Shown here piece by piece: positions 56,354-64,000 of a stretch of DNA of 64,000 nt. The stretch's first letter is position 1. Each line of letters starts with the position of its first letter. The translations under genes and the position numbers were made by a program. The notes under the pieces are model-generated. The model made no database searches, was not told the DNA's origin, and saw nothing but the letters and a program-made list of their open reading frames with translations. The DNA is taken from NCBI RefSeq assembly GCF_024713945.1, contig NC_134684.1:1159001-1223000 (forward strand), read 5' to 3'. This DNA is from Dermatophagoides farinae. Taxonomy: Eukaryota; Arthropoda; Arachnida; Sarcoptiformes; Pyroglyphidae.

Positions 56354-59300
56354 ATGGATATAACAATAAAAAATAATCGAAACAATAATAATAATAGCCC
56401 GGAACCGGAAGATAGTGGACAGGATGATACAGCTGAGACGATAATTAAAACGGAAACAGCAACAGCAACATCGGCAGCAGCAACATCATCAACATTATCA
56501 TCGATTGTGGCAACAGCAGCTAATAATAATAGACAAAGAAGTAATTCGGCAATTGCATTATCATTATTAAAATCGGCTGCTTCTTTTTCAAGCCGTTCCG
56601 GAATTGGATCTATTAATAATAATAATAATAATAATTCAACAACCATTACGTCATCATCATCGATAGTTGCACCGGTGGATTTAAGAATCGCAGCAAATAA
56701 TCTACTTGTAGAAGCAGCAACAACATTTTCATTATGTTCATCATCATCGTCATCATCAAATACAACAACAACAACAACGACGACGACGGCGACCAGTACC
56801 ACCACCACCACAACAACTAATCATCATCATCATCATCATAATAATCATAATCATCACCATCATAGTCATCATAATAATAATAATAATAATCATCATTTAT
56901 TAACCATGTCTACGACTAGCAATAATAATAGTATTGTACAGCCACAACAACAACAACAACAACAACAGCAGCAGCAGCATCAACAAACATCATCAACATC
57001 AATGCCAGCAGTATTTGCTAGCTCATTAACAACTAGTGGATTTATTAATTCTTCATTTGGTAAATTCTTATTGTTTATTTTGAAAAAAAAATTTTTCTAA
57101 AAAATCATCAAATCTTAATCTTAATCTTATTTCAGGTCCAACCAATCCATTAGCGGCCGTATCGGCTAATCAAATTTTAGTCACCAATTCAAGAAAACAA
57201 CGAGAATTTATTCCGGATTCAAAAAAAGATGAGTCATATTGGGATCGTCGAAAACGCAATAATGAAGCAGCTAAACGGTATGTTTGTTCATGTTTCTGTG
57301 TGTGTGTGTGTGTGTGTATATGTGTGAACAACATCATATTCTGTCACAAGTTTTTTTTTCACTTTCACGTCAATGATGATGATGATGATTTCCACTAAGT
57401 ATACAAATATTACACAAAAAAAATGAAAAAAATGTCTATGTATGTACTTTGTGTGTGCATTTATTACATACACACACACACATATCAGGATTTGTGTACG
57501 AGAAATCTTATGTAATTATTTTAGTTTTTTTTTTGCCAGGGTTACCACAATATATAGTAGAAATTGCAAGAGGAGCTATTTTTTTTTCTTTCTTTCTTTC
57601 TTTGAAATATATTACATTACATTATCATCATATTTATATATTTGTCAAGTTTATCAACAAATAGATTTTTTTTTTTTTTTTTGGTATATGTTATCACATG
57701 ACTCATTTTTTTGTTATCAACATCACCATCAGTAGTATATAGTATTATATATATCCGCAATAATAATTTTCGGGTGTATAATAATAATAATATTTTTTTG
57801 TGTGTTTGTATTTGACCACCATTATGATTATAGCATAAAAATTGGTTCATTGATTGCAATGTACTTGTGCATACATTTTTTGGTTTCATTCAGGAAACTA
57901 ATTTTCTTTTTTTTTCTCTATTTAAAAAAGGATAAAAAAAAATATATATCCACATTTCATATGGATGCAATAATCGAATCTGAGTGAGTGTGTGTGTGTG
58001 ATAACATTCGATTATTATTTCATGCAAGAGAAATGAAATAAAATCTTAAAAGATTTGTTGTTGAAAAAGATAGATTAGTCTTTCTATAATATGATTTTTT
58101 TTGCCTAAATAATGTTTTGGTTTCAATTTTTTTCCGATCATCATCATCATCATCATCATCATAATCGATTGTTGATTTTTTTTCTGGTTTCTAGGTTAGG
58201 TGCTTAAAACAGTTGTGTGTGATTTGTATTAAAATGTTGTTTGCTTTTCGGTTTTCATTTTGGTGCCATAGTCACCGACCTATTTTTTTTTTTTTTTTTT
58301 ATTTTAGTTTTTTTTCTGGTAACTTTTTTCATTTTGGATTTTTCTCTCTCTATATATTTGTTGTTGAATCCATTCTATTTTTTTTTCTCGATAGATAACG
58401 AATGATTTTTGGTTATATTTGATCAAAACCATAGAAAAAAAAATCAATTCCAGAAAAAACCTGGCCTGATTATGTTGTTTGTTATTGTTTAATTTTAAAT
58501 TCAATTTATTCTAATCTGGTTATGATGTTGTTGTTGTATGTGGCAACAAACAAGCATAACAACAACAACAACAACAACAAAAACGCTCATGACTTGTTGA
58601 TCATCATCATCATTATAATCATGGTCCCAATATTTTAGTAATGATTGTCATTGATTGTCATCATCATCATCATCATCATAACCTAAATTTGATTTAATAT
58701 GTTTTTTTGGGGCTTATCATAATCATAATTATCAATATATTTATATTCAATGTAGCACAATTATTGGAATTTATGAAAATTTCCCATATAATACTTTTGG
58801 AGAAAAAAAACCTATGAGTTTTAAAATTTACACATTGACTGGTTAATGATAGAATATAATCCTTATTATTATGATAAAATGATAATAATGGCGATTGATT
58901 CATTAATATCGTAGTGTTTTTTTTTTGATTCTTTTCCTTTCAATGAAAAAGAAAAAAAAACATTATGTACAATGCCGTTTTGACTTTTCTATTGAATTTG
59001 TGTGTGTGTGAGTGATACATAATGAATTGTCGTCGACCTCGGCGTGATATCGGTGTATGGTGCCCACTAATTTTTTCATCAATCGTCATTGTATTGTAGT
59101 ATTCATAATCGATTTGCAAATGTTTTGAAGGTTTTTTGCGTTTCGTTTTTTGTTTTTTTTTTGTTTTTTTTTTTTTTTTTTTGGTTATCCATTCATTGTC
59201 AAATATTTATCCTATCATCAAAAAATCAAGGTGCCATTTCAATCAAGAGCAAATAAAAAAAAATGTGTTTCATTGAAAGAATCAATGAATATGGAAATTT

Positions 59301-61891
59301 TCAAATGATATTTTTATCTTTTTTTTCTGAATATGATATGTAATGTAATTTATTTTATATTACCCCTTTTTTATTATAATTTATATTTTAATTTATTTAT
59401 ATTAATTAATTACCTAAATCATTCATATATTTTTTGTTTCTCATTCAGATCTCGAGAAAAACGACGTATTTCTGATTTGGTACTTGAAACACGTGTACTT
59501 GAATTAACACGTGAAAATAGCATTCTAAAAGCTGAATTATATGCCATAAAAGAAAAATTCGGAATATCTCAGAATCAAGTAAGTTTTTTTTCTTTAAAAA
59601 AAATTAAAAATTAAAAATATCATCATCTTTTACTAAAAGCAACAACAACAACAACAACAACATTGAATTAGTTATAAGCTACATTTATCTTGTTGCTAAT
59701 GTTAGAATAATTTGAATTTTATTTTTGGCGTCATTGATTCAAGACAAGGTTGTCATGATGATGATGATGATGATGGTGATGGCGATGGTGGATCGATAGA
59801 TAATAGTCGGCCTTTAAAAAACAACAACAACAACATACGCCATTGATCGACAAATGATGTACTCGACTCTGTGCATTGAGCATTGATAATAGTTAAAGGA
59901 AATGTTCATTACCACTAAACACAAACATACACACACACATACCATCATCATCGTCAAAACATAGGTGAACGGGATTTTGCTCTTGAATGAAAAGAAAAAA
60001 AAAATATATGCAGCTGTATGTACATGTTGTATGTCTTTATATGAATATAACACAAGCAATAAACATAAAAAATGTGATTATTTTATATAAAAACATTGGC
60101 CATCATCATCATCATCATCATATCATTATCAAATAACCACGGCCACAAATTCTTTTAAGCTTTATTTGAAAATTTCGAAGGAAATTGATGCAAGAAAAAA
60201 AAATAACAATGCTGTCGATGATAATGTGATGGTCATCATCATTATTATTATTATACGCATGCATATAATTGAATCGACAATGATGAAACATTGAAAAAAA
60301 GAGTAGTTTATGTGATGCTGCGGTTGTAATGATTTTAAGGATGATGTGATGATAATAGAATGTATTTGATTATAAGGAAATGGCAATGTACGCTTGATGA
60401 TGATGATGGTAAGATGGTAATATCAATGACGGTGGTTAGATTCGTGGATCAATGTTTTTTTTTGTCATGATGCTGAATATATATGAACACAGACACACAT
60501 TCCACCATACACTATTCGTTGGTGGCCTCGAATATTTTAACTGTTTGTTTATAATTGCTTTGTGAATGTGTACCATGCTGTTATATGATGCCACCACGAC
60601 CATGAGTTATTTAAATTATATTAACAAATTTATGGCCATGATCGCCATCACCTACACGTACGCGTACAATACAACACAACAGTAAGAACAATTTGTATAG
60701 GTATGAATGTTCATTTATGAACTTGTGTTTGTTGTGTGTGTGTGTGTGTGATTTGTCCATGGAACATCAAGGTGAAAGAGTTAATTTGTAATTTCATGAT
60801 GATCCAGGAAAAAAAACAAAATAAACAGCTGACTGACCAATATGATAAACTATTGAATGCATATTAATGGCTTCGTATACTTTTATTTACTTAGCATTTT
60901 ATTGATCCCGATTCTGTAACGATACCTTTGCCTGAAAATGCTACCAAAATTCGTCGATCAAGGATTTTTTCCTCCATATTGGGCGGCACATCTGTCAATC
61001 GTAAGTTATTATTATTATTTGAAATATCGATTTTTAAAAATCGATTTAATTAATTACCAGATTAATTAAACAGTGTTTTTGACAGGATCAGATTATACCT
61101 CAAATAATCATCATCAGGGATCGAATAACATATCCAGCCAATCTGCAAATACAGTATCGACATCATCATTTAATTATTCGTGTTCATTGTCACCCAATTC
61201 ACAGTCATCATCATCATCGGAAGTCCATGTATCTACATCTCCCACCTATCATGGTGCGACTGCCAATTCATCACCACCAAATGTTTGTCCATTATTGACC
61301 GGACAACCGACTAATTGTTTGGCTGGCCTAGCCACACCGATTTCCGTTTTAACAGGTAACAAAACAACATTGCCATTCAAACTCAGACACAAAGCACAAG
61401 GAAATTGTAGCTCAAATAATGTCAACTCAGTTGTAGCCCAAATTCGAAACCAAGAAACATCGAATATTGGAACACACAATGATAGTGATGCCAGTAGTGA
61501 TTCATCATCGGTTGCTCAATTGAGTAGTAGTGCTGAATCGACAGGCATATTTGGTGATCATCATCGTGACAGTGCTGGTTCACCTGATTCTTTATTGAAA
61601 ACAGAAAATTATGCACTCAAAAGTGAATTGCAGAGGCTAGCTTCTGAAGTGGCTACACTTAAAAATGTTCTGGTCTTGAATCAATCAATCAATGCTGTAA
61701 CTTCAGGTCCGGTTATTGGTGGCCATGCATCAAATTTCAATAAATCAAATAACGAAAGATGCAATCGTTTTCATCAAACTGTAAGTCCTATGGAAACTCA
61801 CTCACCTATACATTATAATGAAGATCTCGATAGCAAAGACTTGCTGAAAAATGTAATTCAATTCCAGAAATTGAATGATATTATCGTATAA
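56354..61891 (+). CDS. vri: vrille / NFIL3-type bZIP transcription factor
   Basis: bZIP repressor; in insects VRILLE is a clock-controlled factor acting on V/P-box sites and is needed for growth, in vertebrates NFIL3 (E4BP4) is the counterpart. Exons 56354-57059, 57136-57277, 59449-59578, 60895-61000 and 61086-61891; 629 aa. The diagnostic block spans exons 2-3: [20 protein letters not shown] (264-283), [20 protein letters not shown], then [20 protein letters not shown]. The long introns 57278-59448 and 59579-60894 split the bZIP: the first falls right after the basic-region AAKR. Exon 5 keeps the NFIL3/vrille LPFKLRHKA motif (about 462) and a second Leu-rich helix ([20 protein letters not shown]). 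The N-terminal 235 residues are almost all low-complexity Asn, Thr, Ser, His and Gln, encoded by trinucleotide repeats. NFIL3-family identity is firm; clock role is inference. Confidence 0.94.
57278..59448 (+). other. Intron 2 of vrille, 2.2 kb
   Basis: GTATGT to CATTCAG. Contains (GT)n at 57297-57319, (CA)n at 57470-57481, (CATC)n and (ATC)n at 58138-58160, (AAC)n at 58557-58580, and a TTATGTAA octamer at 57508-57515 that matches the core bound by VRILLE/PDP1-type bZIPs. No coding exon was recognised. Confidence 0.6.
59579..60894 (+). other. Intron 3 of vrille, 1.3 kb
   Basis: GTAAGT to TACTTAG. Contains (AAC)n at 59639-59659 and 59820-59835, (GAT)n at 59755-59776, (CAT)n at 60101-60119 and (GT)n at 60733-60751. 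No coding exon was recognised. Confidence 0.6.
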
Positions 61892-62693: not shown

Positions 62694-63100
62694 ATGCATC
62701 GTATAACATTAATTTCGTTTTTAGTTTTGGCTACCACCGTTTCATTGGCTGGTAAGTCGATACCTTAATAATTTATTTACAATGCTGAATATTCTAAATA
62801 ATAATGCGTTTCCAATTGACAGTTTCCGAATCAGGCCTTTGTTCATGGTACAATGCCCGAAGAGGAGCCAAAACAGCCAATGGTGAAGGATTCGATCCGA
62901 ATGCCATGACTGCTGCACATAAAACCTTGCCATTCAACACTAAAGTTCGTGTGACCATTGGCAGTCGACATGCAGTAGTACGAATCAATGATCGTGGTCC
63001 ATTTGTTAAAGGAAGAATTTTGGATGTAACTCCTAAAGTTGCCGATATACTTAATCTGCGACAAAAAGGTGTTGCCCAATGTACTGTTGTCAGAGCTTGA
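62694..63100 (+). CDS. Secreted RlpA-like double-psi beta-barrel protein, apparent bacterial origin
   Basis: 111 aa. Exons 62694-62751 and 62823-63100 with a 71-bp GT..AG intron. Residues 1-19 (MHRITLISFLVLATTVSLA) are a typical signal peptide, so the product is secreted. The mature protein is a single RlpA/expansin-like domain: CSWYNARRGAKTANGEGFDP, NAMTAAHKTLPFNTKVRVTI, VVRINDRGPFVKGRILDVTP and a closing GVAQCTVVRA. RlpA of bacteria is a peptidoglycan lytic transglycosylase; its catalytic Glu, His and Asp (E120, H131 and D157 in Pseudomonas, from memory) align with Glu41, His52 and Asp76. Two Cys (26 and 106) bracket the domain and could form a disulfide. The SPOR domain and lipobox of bacterial RlpA are absent. 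AATAAA at 63115-63120 is the likely poly(A) signal. Intron, signal peptide and poly(A) signal show a nuclear gene, not contamination. Action on bacterial cell wall or on other glycans is inference. Confidence 0.9.
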
Positions 63101-64000
63101 ACAACAACAACAAAAATAAATTGATCAAATTTTGCAGATTTCTTAATTGATAACCAAGATCTTTTTTCTTGTTGAATGAAAAAAACAATGAATAAATTAC
63201 ATTGAAAATATTAATGTATTATGTTCTCTAGTGCAATTCAAATGTCACTGGAATAGCACTTTAATTTTATTTAGTTTTTTTTTGGTATCAATCATCATCA
63301 TCATCATTCGAAAAAAATACACAGTATTACTACGGAAAAAATATATAAATATATAATAAACAAACGCATCAAGATTTACAGACAAAAAAAAAGTTCGAGT
63401 CGATGGATGGATTCTGATTCTGAGACAACAGACGCATCTTGATCGTTTATTATTTTTTTTAGTGAGAGGGTTTGGCAAGATCAACAACGACAATAAAATT
63501 GTTCCGGTTATTAAAAGTGTTTTGGGGGGCAAAAAAAATGCTCCTACGTGTGTGTGTGTGTGTGTCTGTGTGTTGGGTGTTTGGGTGTGATTGCATATAT
63601 ATATAGATTTCGATCGATTTGATTGATCATATTGACTAATTAGTAATATATATATAGAAAACTATATTTAGAAAAATTGTTTGAAATGGCTCTATTATAA
63701 TTTTTATATATAATAATTATTAATAATATCATATATGGAACAGATAGAAAAGAAGAAGAGAAAAAAATTTGTGTTGATCATCATATCAATTGCAAATTGT
63801 TCCCAGCAAAGTGGATGGACCTTGGTGGTGGTGGATTGTTTTTGTTGCCACTGTTTGTTTCAATTTTCTGTGTTGTTGGTGTGTTTGTGTAACCAAATAA
63901 TTGGTGAAAATATACAATCGAAAAAAAAAGAATTTTTTTTTTTGGACAAAATTCAAAAAATCTTTTCTTGTTTTTTAAACATTTATATGAAGAGACTAGG
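63101..64000. other. 3' flank of the RlpA-like gene to the window edge
   Basis: AT-rich with (GT)n at 63547-63572, AT dinucleotides near 63593-63606 and 63642-63655 and GGT repeats near 63821-63835. No gene was recognised. Confidence 0.5.

Follow-up and report, generated by a model that had tools for sequence, protein, structure and literature searches.

The stretch of DNA presented above, 64,000 nucleotides of the mite Dermatophagoides farinae (assembly GCF_024713945.1, contig NC_134684.1, positions 1,159,001 to 1,223,000 of the forward strand; hereafter the window), contains near its right end a two-exon gene for a 111-residue protein with a signal-peptide-like leader and a single RlpA-type double-psi beta-barrel (DPBB) domain of bacterial type. 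As an explanation of the whole, it is considered somewhat probable that a bacterial RlpA domain was transferred into the mite and became a secreted protein that would cut the walls of ingested bacteria. An earlier note, made from the sequence of the window, had pointed to this gene, and its reading frame, motif blocks and coordinates, including the exons and the 71-bp intron, were recovered as described.

The domain matches both Pfam DPBB_1 (E value 7.2e-22, 77.9 bits against a cut-off of 28.8) and NCBIfam TIGR00413, rlpA (97.9 bits against a cut-off of 82.15), so that the resemblance is not due to chance and the bacterial-type RlpA domain of the earlier note is confirmed. DPBB_1 by itself is described as failing to separate RlpA from the N-domains of expansins (PMC3969231). 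The predicted fold is a double-psi barrel (predicted local distance difference test score, pLDDT, 96.6) that agrees best with the small RlpA-like protein PA4485 of Pseudomonas aeruginosa (PDB 4avr), the closest solved relative; PA4485 is bacterial and has Ala and Val at the positions of the two cysteines of the mite protein. Expansins, kiwellin, barwin-like proteins and cerato-platanin have the fold in common with the mite protein but show 10-21% identity and much lower Z scores against its model, and sequence and predicted fold alike place it far nearer to PA4485 than to expansins, kiwellins or barwin-like proteins. Relatives were collected by one pattern scan of 84,980 species representatives, which gave 441 stretches and 403 relatives, of which the best 80 loci were kept; a profile of an alignment that used 42 of these 80 had no expansin, kiwellin, barwin-like protein or cerato-platanin among its PDB matches up to E = 10. 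The RlpA of P. aeruginosa and E. coli, a septal lytic transglycosylase (TIGR00413), has a catalytic-type DPBB as in the mite protein, but the full-length septal type also has a SPOR domain and a lipoprotein leader, and the mite protein shows neither: no SPOR family was among its Pfam matches up to an E value of 0.1, the protein ends five residues past the domain match, and no leader with a cleavage-site cysteine is seen by eye, the first cysteine being residue 26. Without a SPOR domain or a lipobox it is not a septal RlpA, but it may act like the catalytic part of one.

The earlier note had read activity from the retention of Glu41, His52 and Asp76, which we take, as in P. aeruginosa RlpA, to be the catalytic residues of the family. 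The three residues are indeed conserved in nearly all of 100 relatives (80 loci of the species scan, 8 of Bacteroidota type and 12 on viral contigs; Table 1), but most of these relatives were selected by exact eight-residue query peptides, which inflates the counts; the complete conservation of His52 is inflated because AHKTLPFN was among those peptides. The 22 columns that are invariant among the 43 sequences of the alignment are all kept in the mite protein, by the definition of that list.

The two cysteines, which had been thought to bracket the domain as an adaptation to secretion, are each located in a strand of the model, and no sampled relative has the two together (0 of 100), because none has a cysteine at the position of Cys26. 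A disulfide between Cys26 and Cys106 is plausible from the model and would fit that remark. Micromonospora relatives have two cysteines elsewhere in the barrel (SGSCGAS or SSGTCGAS, and GRCLD); because this pair sits at other places, cysteines have been added to the RlpA barrel more than once. A knottin (inhibitor cystine knot, ICK) domain requires six cysteines, and the mite protein, with 111 residues and two cysteines, has none.

Following horizontal transfer into the nuclear genome of the mite, the bacterial RlpA-type domain would have acquired a promoter of the host, an exon for the signal peptide, and an intron. The product, once transcribed and secreted as a single barrel, perhaps held by one disulfide, would most likely be a lytic transglycosylase that attacks the glycan strands of peptidoglycan in faeces or in the lumen of the gut and so helps to digest ingested bacteria or hold them down. 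The candidate partners in the mite's own genome are a gene with an NlpC/P60 domain (contig 3, 484896-485222, 57 bits) and an Amidase_2 match (contig 3, 4958786-4959175), the latter presumably an animal peptidoglycan recognition protein (PGRP), which read by eye has what we take to be the two His and one Cys of the zinc amidases. The PGRP-like amidase is a possible partner in stripping peptides from peptidoglycan, and together with the NlpC/P60 endopeptidase it could remove stem peptides to leave denuded glycan for an RlpA-type cutter. In published descriptions of RlpA, its DPBB domain is catalytic and can cleave denuded glycan (PMC6895207, PMC9116674), and most of the transferred genes for microbial-wall lysis in Dermatophagoides pteronyssinus are placed in a juvenile-predominant cluster, which its authors call compatible with digestion (PMC12105342). 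A secreted digestive or antibacterial wall-cutter is favoured because of the kept residues, the catalysis ascribed to the RlpA DPBB domain, the NlpC/P60 and amidase genes, and this juvenile cluster.

Several points weigh against a wall-cutting enzyme. For aphid RlpA, it has been argued that the DPBB domain possibly has a role outside peptidoglycan metabolism (PMC9116674). The mite protein deviates at positions 6, 68, 69 and 72 of its mature part, which are 4 of the 14 nearly invariant columns, and has a long branch of 1.15 changes per column in a tree of 61 rows, which together could mean altered function; it has no SPOR or other binding module; and PA4485 carries the title 'hypothetical protein', its function not being established there. 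Among barrels of the same fold are a protease inhibitor and proteins that are not enzymes, no match to the wall-enzyme domains GH25 and Hydrolase_2 was found in the mite's own genome, and an in-frame ATG at 62804 would allow an unspliced, leaderless product of 98 residues.

An alternative that accommodates the deviating columns and the non-enzymatic relatives of the fold is that the domain was acquired and is secreted but has lost its enzyme activity, serving as a peptidoglycan- or glycan-binding barrel or as a protease inhibitor like the Streptomyces papain inhibitor. That inhibitor is structurally related and the mite is rich in cysteine proteases, but the putative active site is kept in the mite protein, and the alternative is regarded as possible at a low level of confidence. 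As a separate observation on these proteases, a cysteine-protease gene on contig 2 of the mite's own genome encodes a stretch that agrees with the PDB sequence of Der f 1 in 79 of 79 residues, and Peptidase_C1 matches are clustered in tandem at several places on contigs 2, 3 and 6, some of the pieces having stop codons.

By analogy with aphids, the protein might instead be directed at a symbiont, acting on the D. farinae endosymbiont Cardinium and not on food bacteria. In bacteriocytes, the RlpA genes of aphids are reported to show a 10- to 154-fold enrichment (PMC2662799, PMC2829048), the aphid protein RlpA4 is reported to localise to Buchnera (PMC9116674), and Cardinium is present in D. farinae (PMC10117132), but the mite protein is without the knottin domains of aphid RlpA, and this alternative is considered unlikely.

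The joined exons encode a mature part of 92 residues after the leader MHRITLISFLVLATTVSLA, basic (computed isoelectric point 10.6), of about 10 kDa and with a single domain; the best computed hydropathy over ten residues of the leader is 2.77, and the residues around the expected cleavage are TTVSLA-VSESG. When the 400 bases preceding exon 2 were shuffled 5000 times with dinucleotides preserved, an ATG-started hydrophobic leader that enters GTRAGT in the correct phase arose 12 times, so a chance origin of leader and donor is unlikely as judged from the sequence. The spliced leader of the earlier gene model is upheld at the level of the DNA sequence, but that model had passed over the unspliced frame that begins within the intron. 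If the intron were unused, the locus would yield a leaderless cytosolic protein of 98 residues from the ATG at 62804, or would be a silent insertion; against this, a consensus GTAAGT donor and CAG acceptor link the hydrophobic leader in phase, an arrangement rare in the shuffles, the frame is intact, the GC content at third codon positions (GC3) is host-like and relatives have at most 66% best-segment identity among the loci returned, which makes an unused intron or a recent or dead insertion quite improbable. The AATAAA that had been counted as a mark of the gene is present, but it is weak evidence because the motif occurs 112 times on the plus strand of the window, or 1.75 times per kb. Sigma-70-type promoter-like sites 5' of the gene number 4, against 2.1 +/- 1.5 in shuffles, which is not an informative difference.

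Table 1. Features of the RlpA-type gene and its upstream neighbour, in window coordinates; residue counts are among the 100 relatives defined in the text.
Feature	Position	Strand	Remarks
Exon 1	62694..62751	+	ATG, signal-peptide-like leader MHRITLISFLVLATTVSLA, first base of codon 20
Intron	62752..62822	+	71 bp, GTAAGT...GACAG, phase 1
Exon 2	62823..63100	+	Remainder of codon 20, then the mature protein up to the TGA stop at 63098-63100
RlpA-type double-psi beta-barrel domain	62831..63082	+	Protein residues 23-106; DPBB_1, TIGR00413, pLDDT 96.6
Cys26, first strand	62840..62842	+	Cys in 0/100 relatives, Ala in 93/100; model strand 2-8
Glu41, putative catalytic acid	62885..62887	+	Glu in 96/100 relatives
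His52, putative active-site residue	62918..62920	+	His in 100/100 relatives, inflated count
Asp76, putative active-site residue	62990..62992	+	Asp in 99/100 relatives
Cys106, last strand	63080..63082	+	Cys in 4/100 relatives, Val in 87/100; model strand 83-90
AATAAA, candidate polyadenylation signal	63115..63120	+	Shortly 3' of stop
Rival unspliced frame	62804..63100	+	98 residues, ATG within intron, no leader
Upstream neighbour, bZIP domain	57084..59614	+	In two pieces, open frames 57084-57398 and 59309-59614

The source of the domain looks bacterial from its relatives, which belong to many phyla and have 47-66% best-segment identity (best 80 of 403). The top-ranked among these 80 is from a Poribacteria metagenome-assembled genome, with 58% identity (59% and 62% by other alignments). 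The Poribacteria relative (contig 235:1953-2495) has an open frame of 231 residues and a second, weak domain match just upstream (E value 2.7e-7), and the protein is perhaps a tandem double barrel. Matches were found in 105 of 118 Bacteroidota genomes, the best among the matches listed having 54-56% identity, and gave no support to a Cardinium-like donor, Cardinium itself being outside the search. Matching records of plasmids (106) and phages (59) all have less than 60% identity, and 12 loci on viral contigs have 43-54%. Across these comparisons with bacteria, plasmids, phages, viral contigs and the PDB, another eukaryotic source is disfavoured, and the identities together with the GC3 suggest that the transfer was not recent. 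The tree, with 61 rows of 90 columns each, was built with 52 of the 80 species-scan loci and 8 Bacteroidota-type rows, one of which is identical to a row already present, and its rows are biased by the selection with exact eight-residue peptides; it places the mite protein on its long branch beside a Mariprofundaceae row with support of 95/78, not starred. Six other groups were tried in turn as constrained partners of the mite protein, and none of the six constraints was rejected (approximately unbiased test, p-AU 0.153-0.446); because all six alternative placements are compatible with the data, no donor group is named. The interpretation given in the earlier note is, as a whole, partly supported.

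The window is part of contig 8 (1159001-1223000) of a genome of 62.4 Mb in 22 contigs, and the RlpA gene, the single locus found in this genome by a Pfam family search and a protein search up to E = 10, sits 1.22 Mb inside a contig of 4.4 Mb. The upstream neighbour, described before as vrille, has a bZIP domain (bZIP_2, E value 4.6e-17 on its two pieces, joined by eye) and is presumably a vrille/NFIL3-like gene. The piece tested of open frame 61070-61891, the one nearest to the RlpA gene, had no Pfam family above the cut-off; this frame may be the last exon of the bZIP gene. About 2 kb downstream of the RlpA gene, on the opposite strand and just beyond the window, are two pieces with C2H2 zinc fingers; one exceeds the Pfam cut-off and the other falls just short of it. 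The host-like composition claimed earlier applies to GC3 (0.27, against 0.22-0.26 in six host exons) but not to overall coding GC, which at 0.42 exceeds the 0.32-0.39 of those exons. Bacterial contamination or misassembly, for which the bacterial type of the domain and the slightly higher coding GC might be cited, is very unlikely and as an explanation scarcely credible, because the gene lies deep in a 4.4-Mb contig, with a bZIP gene on one side and C2H2 zinc fingers on the other, has host-like GC3 and was found in one copy, and a near-identical record is absent from the 80 best species-scan loci and from the matching plasmid and phage records. The RlpA gene is a nuclear gene of the mite.

If it is expressed and active, a cutter of glycan strands joins the borrowed cell-wall enzymes already known in dust mites, and a second arthropod lineage has RlpA; if the explanation is true, the use by an animal of the barrel by itself, with neither SPOR nor knottin as a partner, becomes testable. 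A contribution to the microbial-wall fragments of house dust is a speculation. No report of RlpA in mites was found among the papers listed by literature searches on the subject, and the gene may already be listed in gene tables that these did not cover. In D. pteronyssinus, 48 putative transferred genes were counted, wall-lytic ones among them, with a bit score over 100 as the threshold for newly called transfers (PMC12105342); an orthologue could have been missed, because this threshold is just above the best score of the D. farinae domain, 99.4 bits under other program settings.

That mites carry other bacterial-type wall enzymes, as the earlier note held, is borne out by LytFM, by the D. 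pteronyssinus gene set and by the NlpC/P60 gene. LytFM, a 14-kDa NlpC/P60 bacteriolytic enzyme of Dermatophagoides, is like the mite RlpA protein a small cell-wall enzyme of bacterial type and occurs in the same mites, but it is an endopeptidase of another Pfam family and was obtained, as a protein, from medium in which mites had grown (PMC5586350). The cwh cell wall hydrolases of ladybirds are transferred, intron-bearing genes of lytic-transglycosylase type with an antibacterial effect (PMC7807722), but they are of the Hydrolase_2 family. The closest precedent is in aphids, where RlpA genes transferred into an arthropod genome, expressed and equipped with a leader and introns, have been known since 2009 (PMC2662799); the mite gene, in which a bacterial DPBB is joined with a leader and an intron at the level of DNA, is a further case of this known transfer, of simpler architecture and possibly independent. 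It is tentatively proposed that an arachnid took up RlpA independently of aphids, added a new disulfide staple and made of it a stand-alone secreted glycan-cutter that, with the PGRP-like amidase and NlpC/P60, rebuilds out of components that differ in origin the bacterial order of steps, in which peptides are stripped first and denuded glycan is cut afterwards, for digestive or antibacterial use. The pea aphid Acyrthosiphon pisum has a family of five, RlpA1-5, and RlpA is described from other aphids too (PMC2662799, PMC2829048, PMC9116674). Compared by description, their sequences not being aligned, the aphid and mite genes both have a bacterial DPBB in a nuclear genome with introns gained, SPOR absent and a donor not placed, the aphid analysis of 76 sites likewise leaving its donor unplaced (PMC2662799). 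A signal peptide is reported for four of the five aphid genes, and the mite gene has a signal-peptide-like leader. The aphid genes are five and enriched in bacteriocytes, whereas one copy was found in the mite, and the aphid proteins include eukaryotic knottin domains, whereas the mite protein is a bare barrel with two cysteines.
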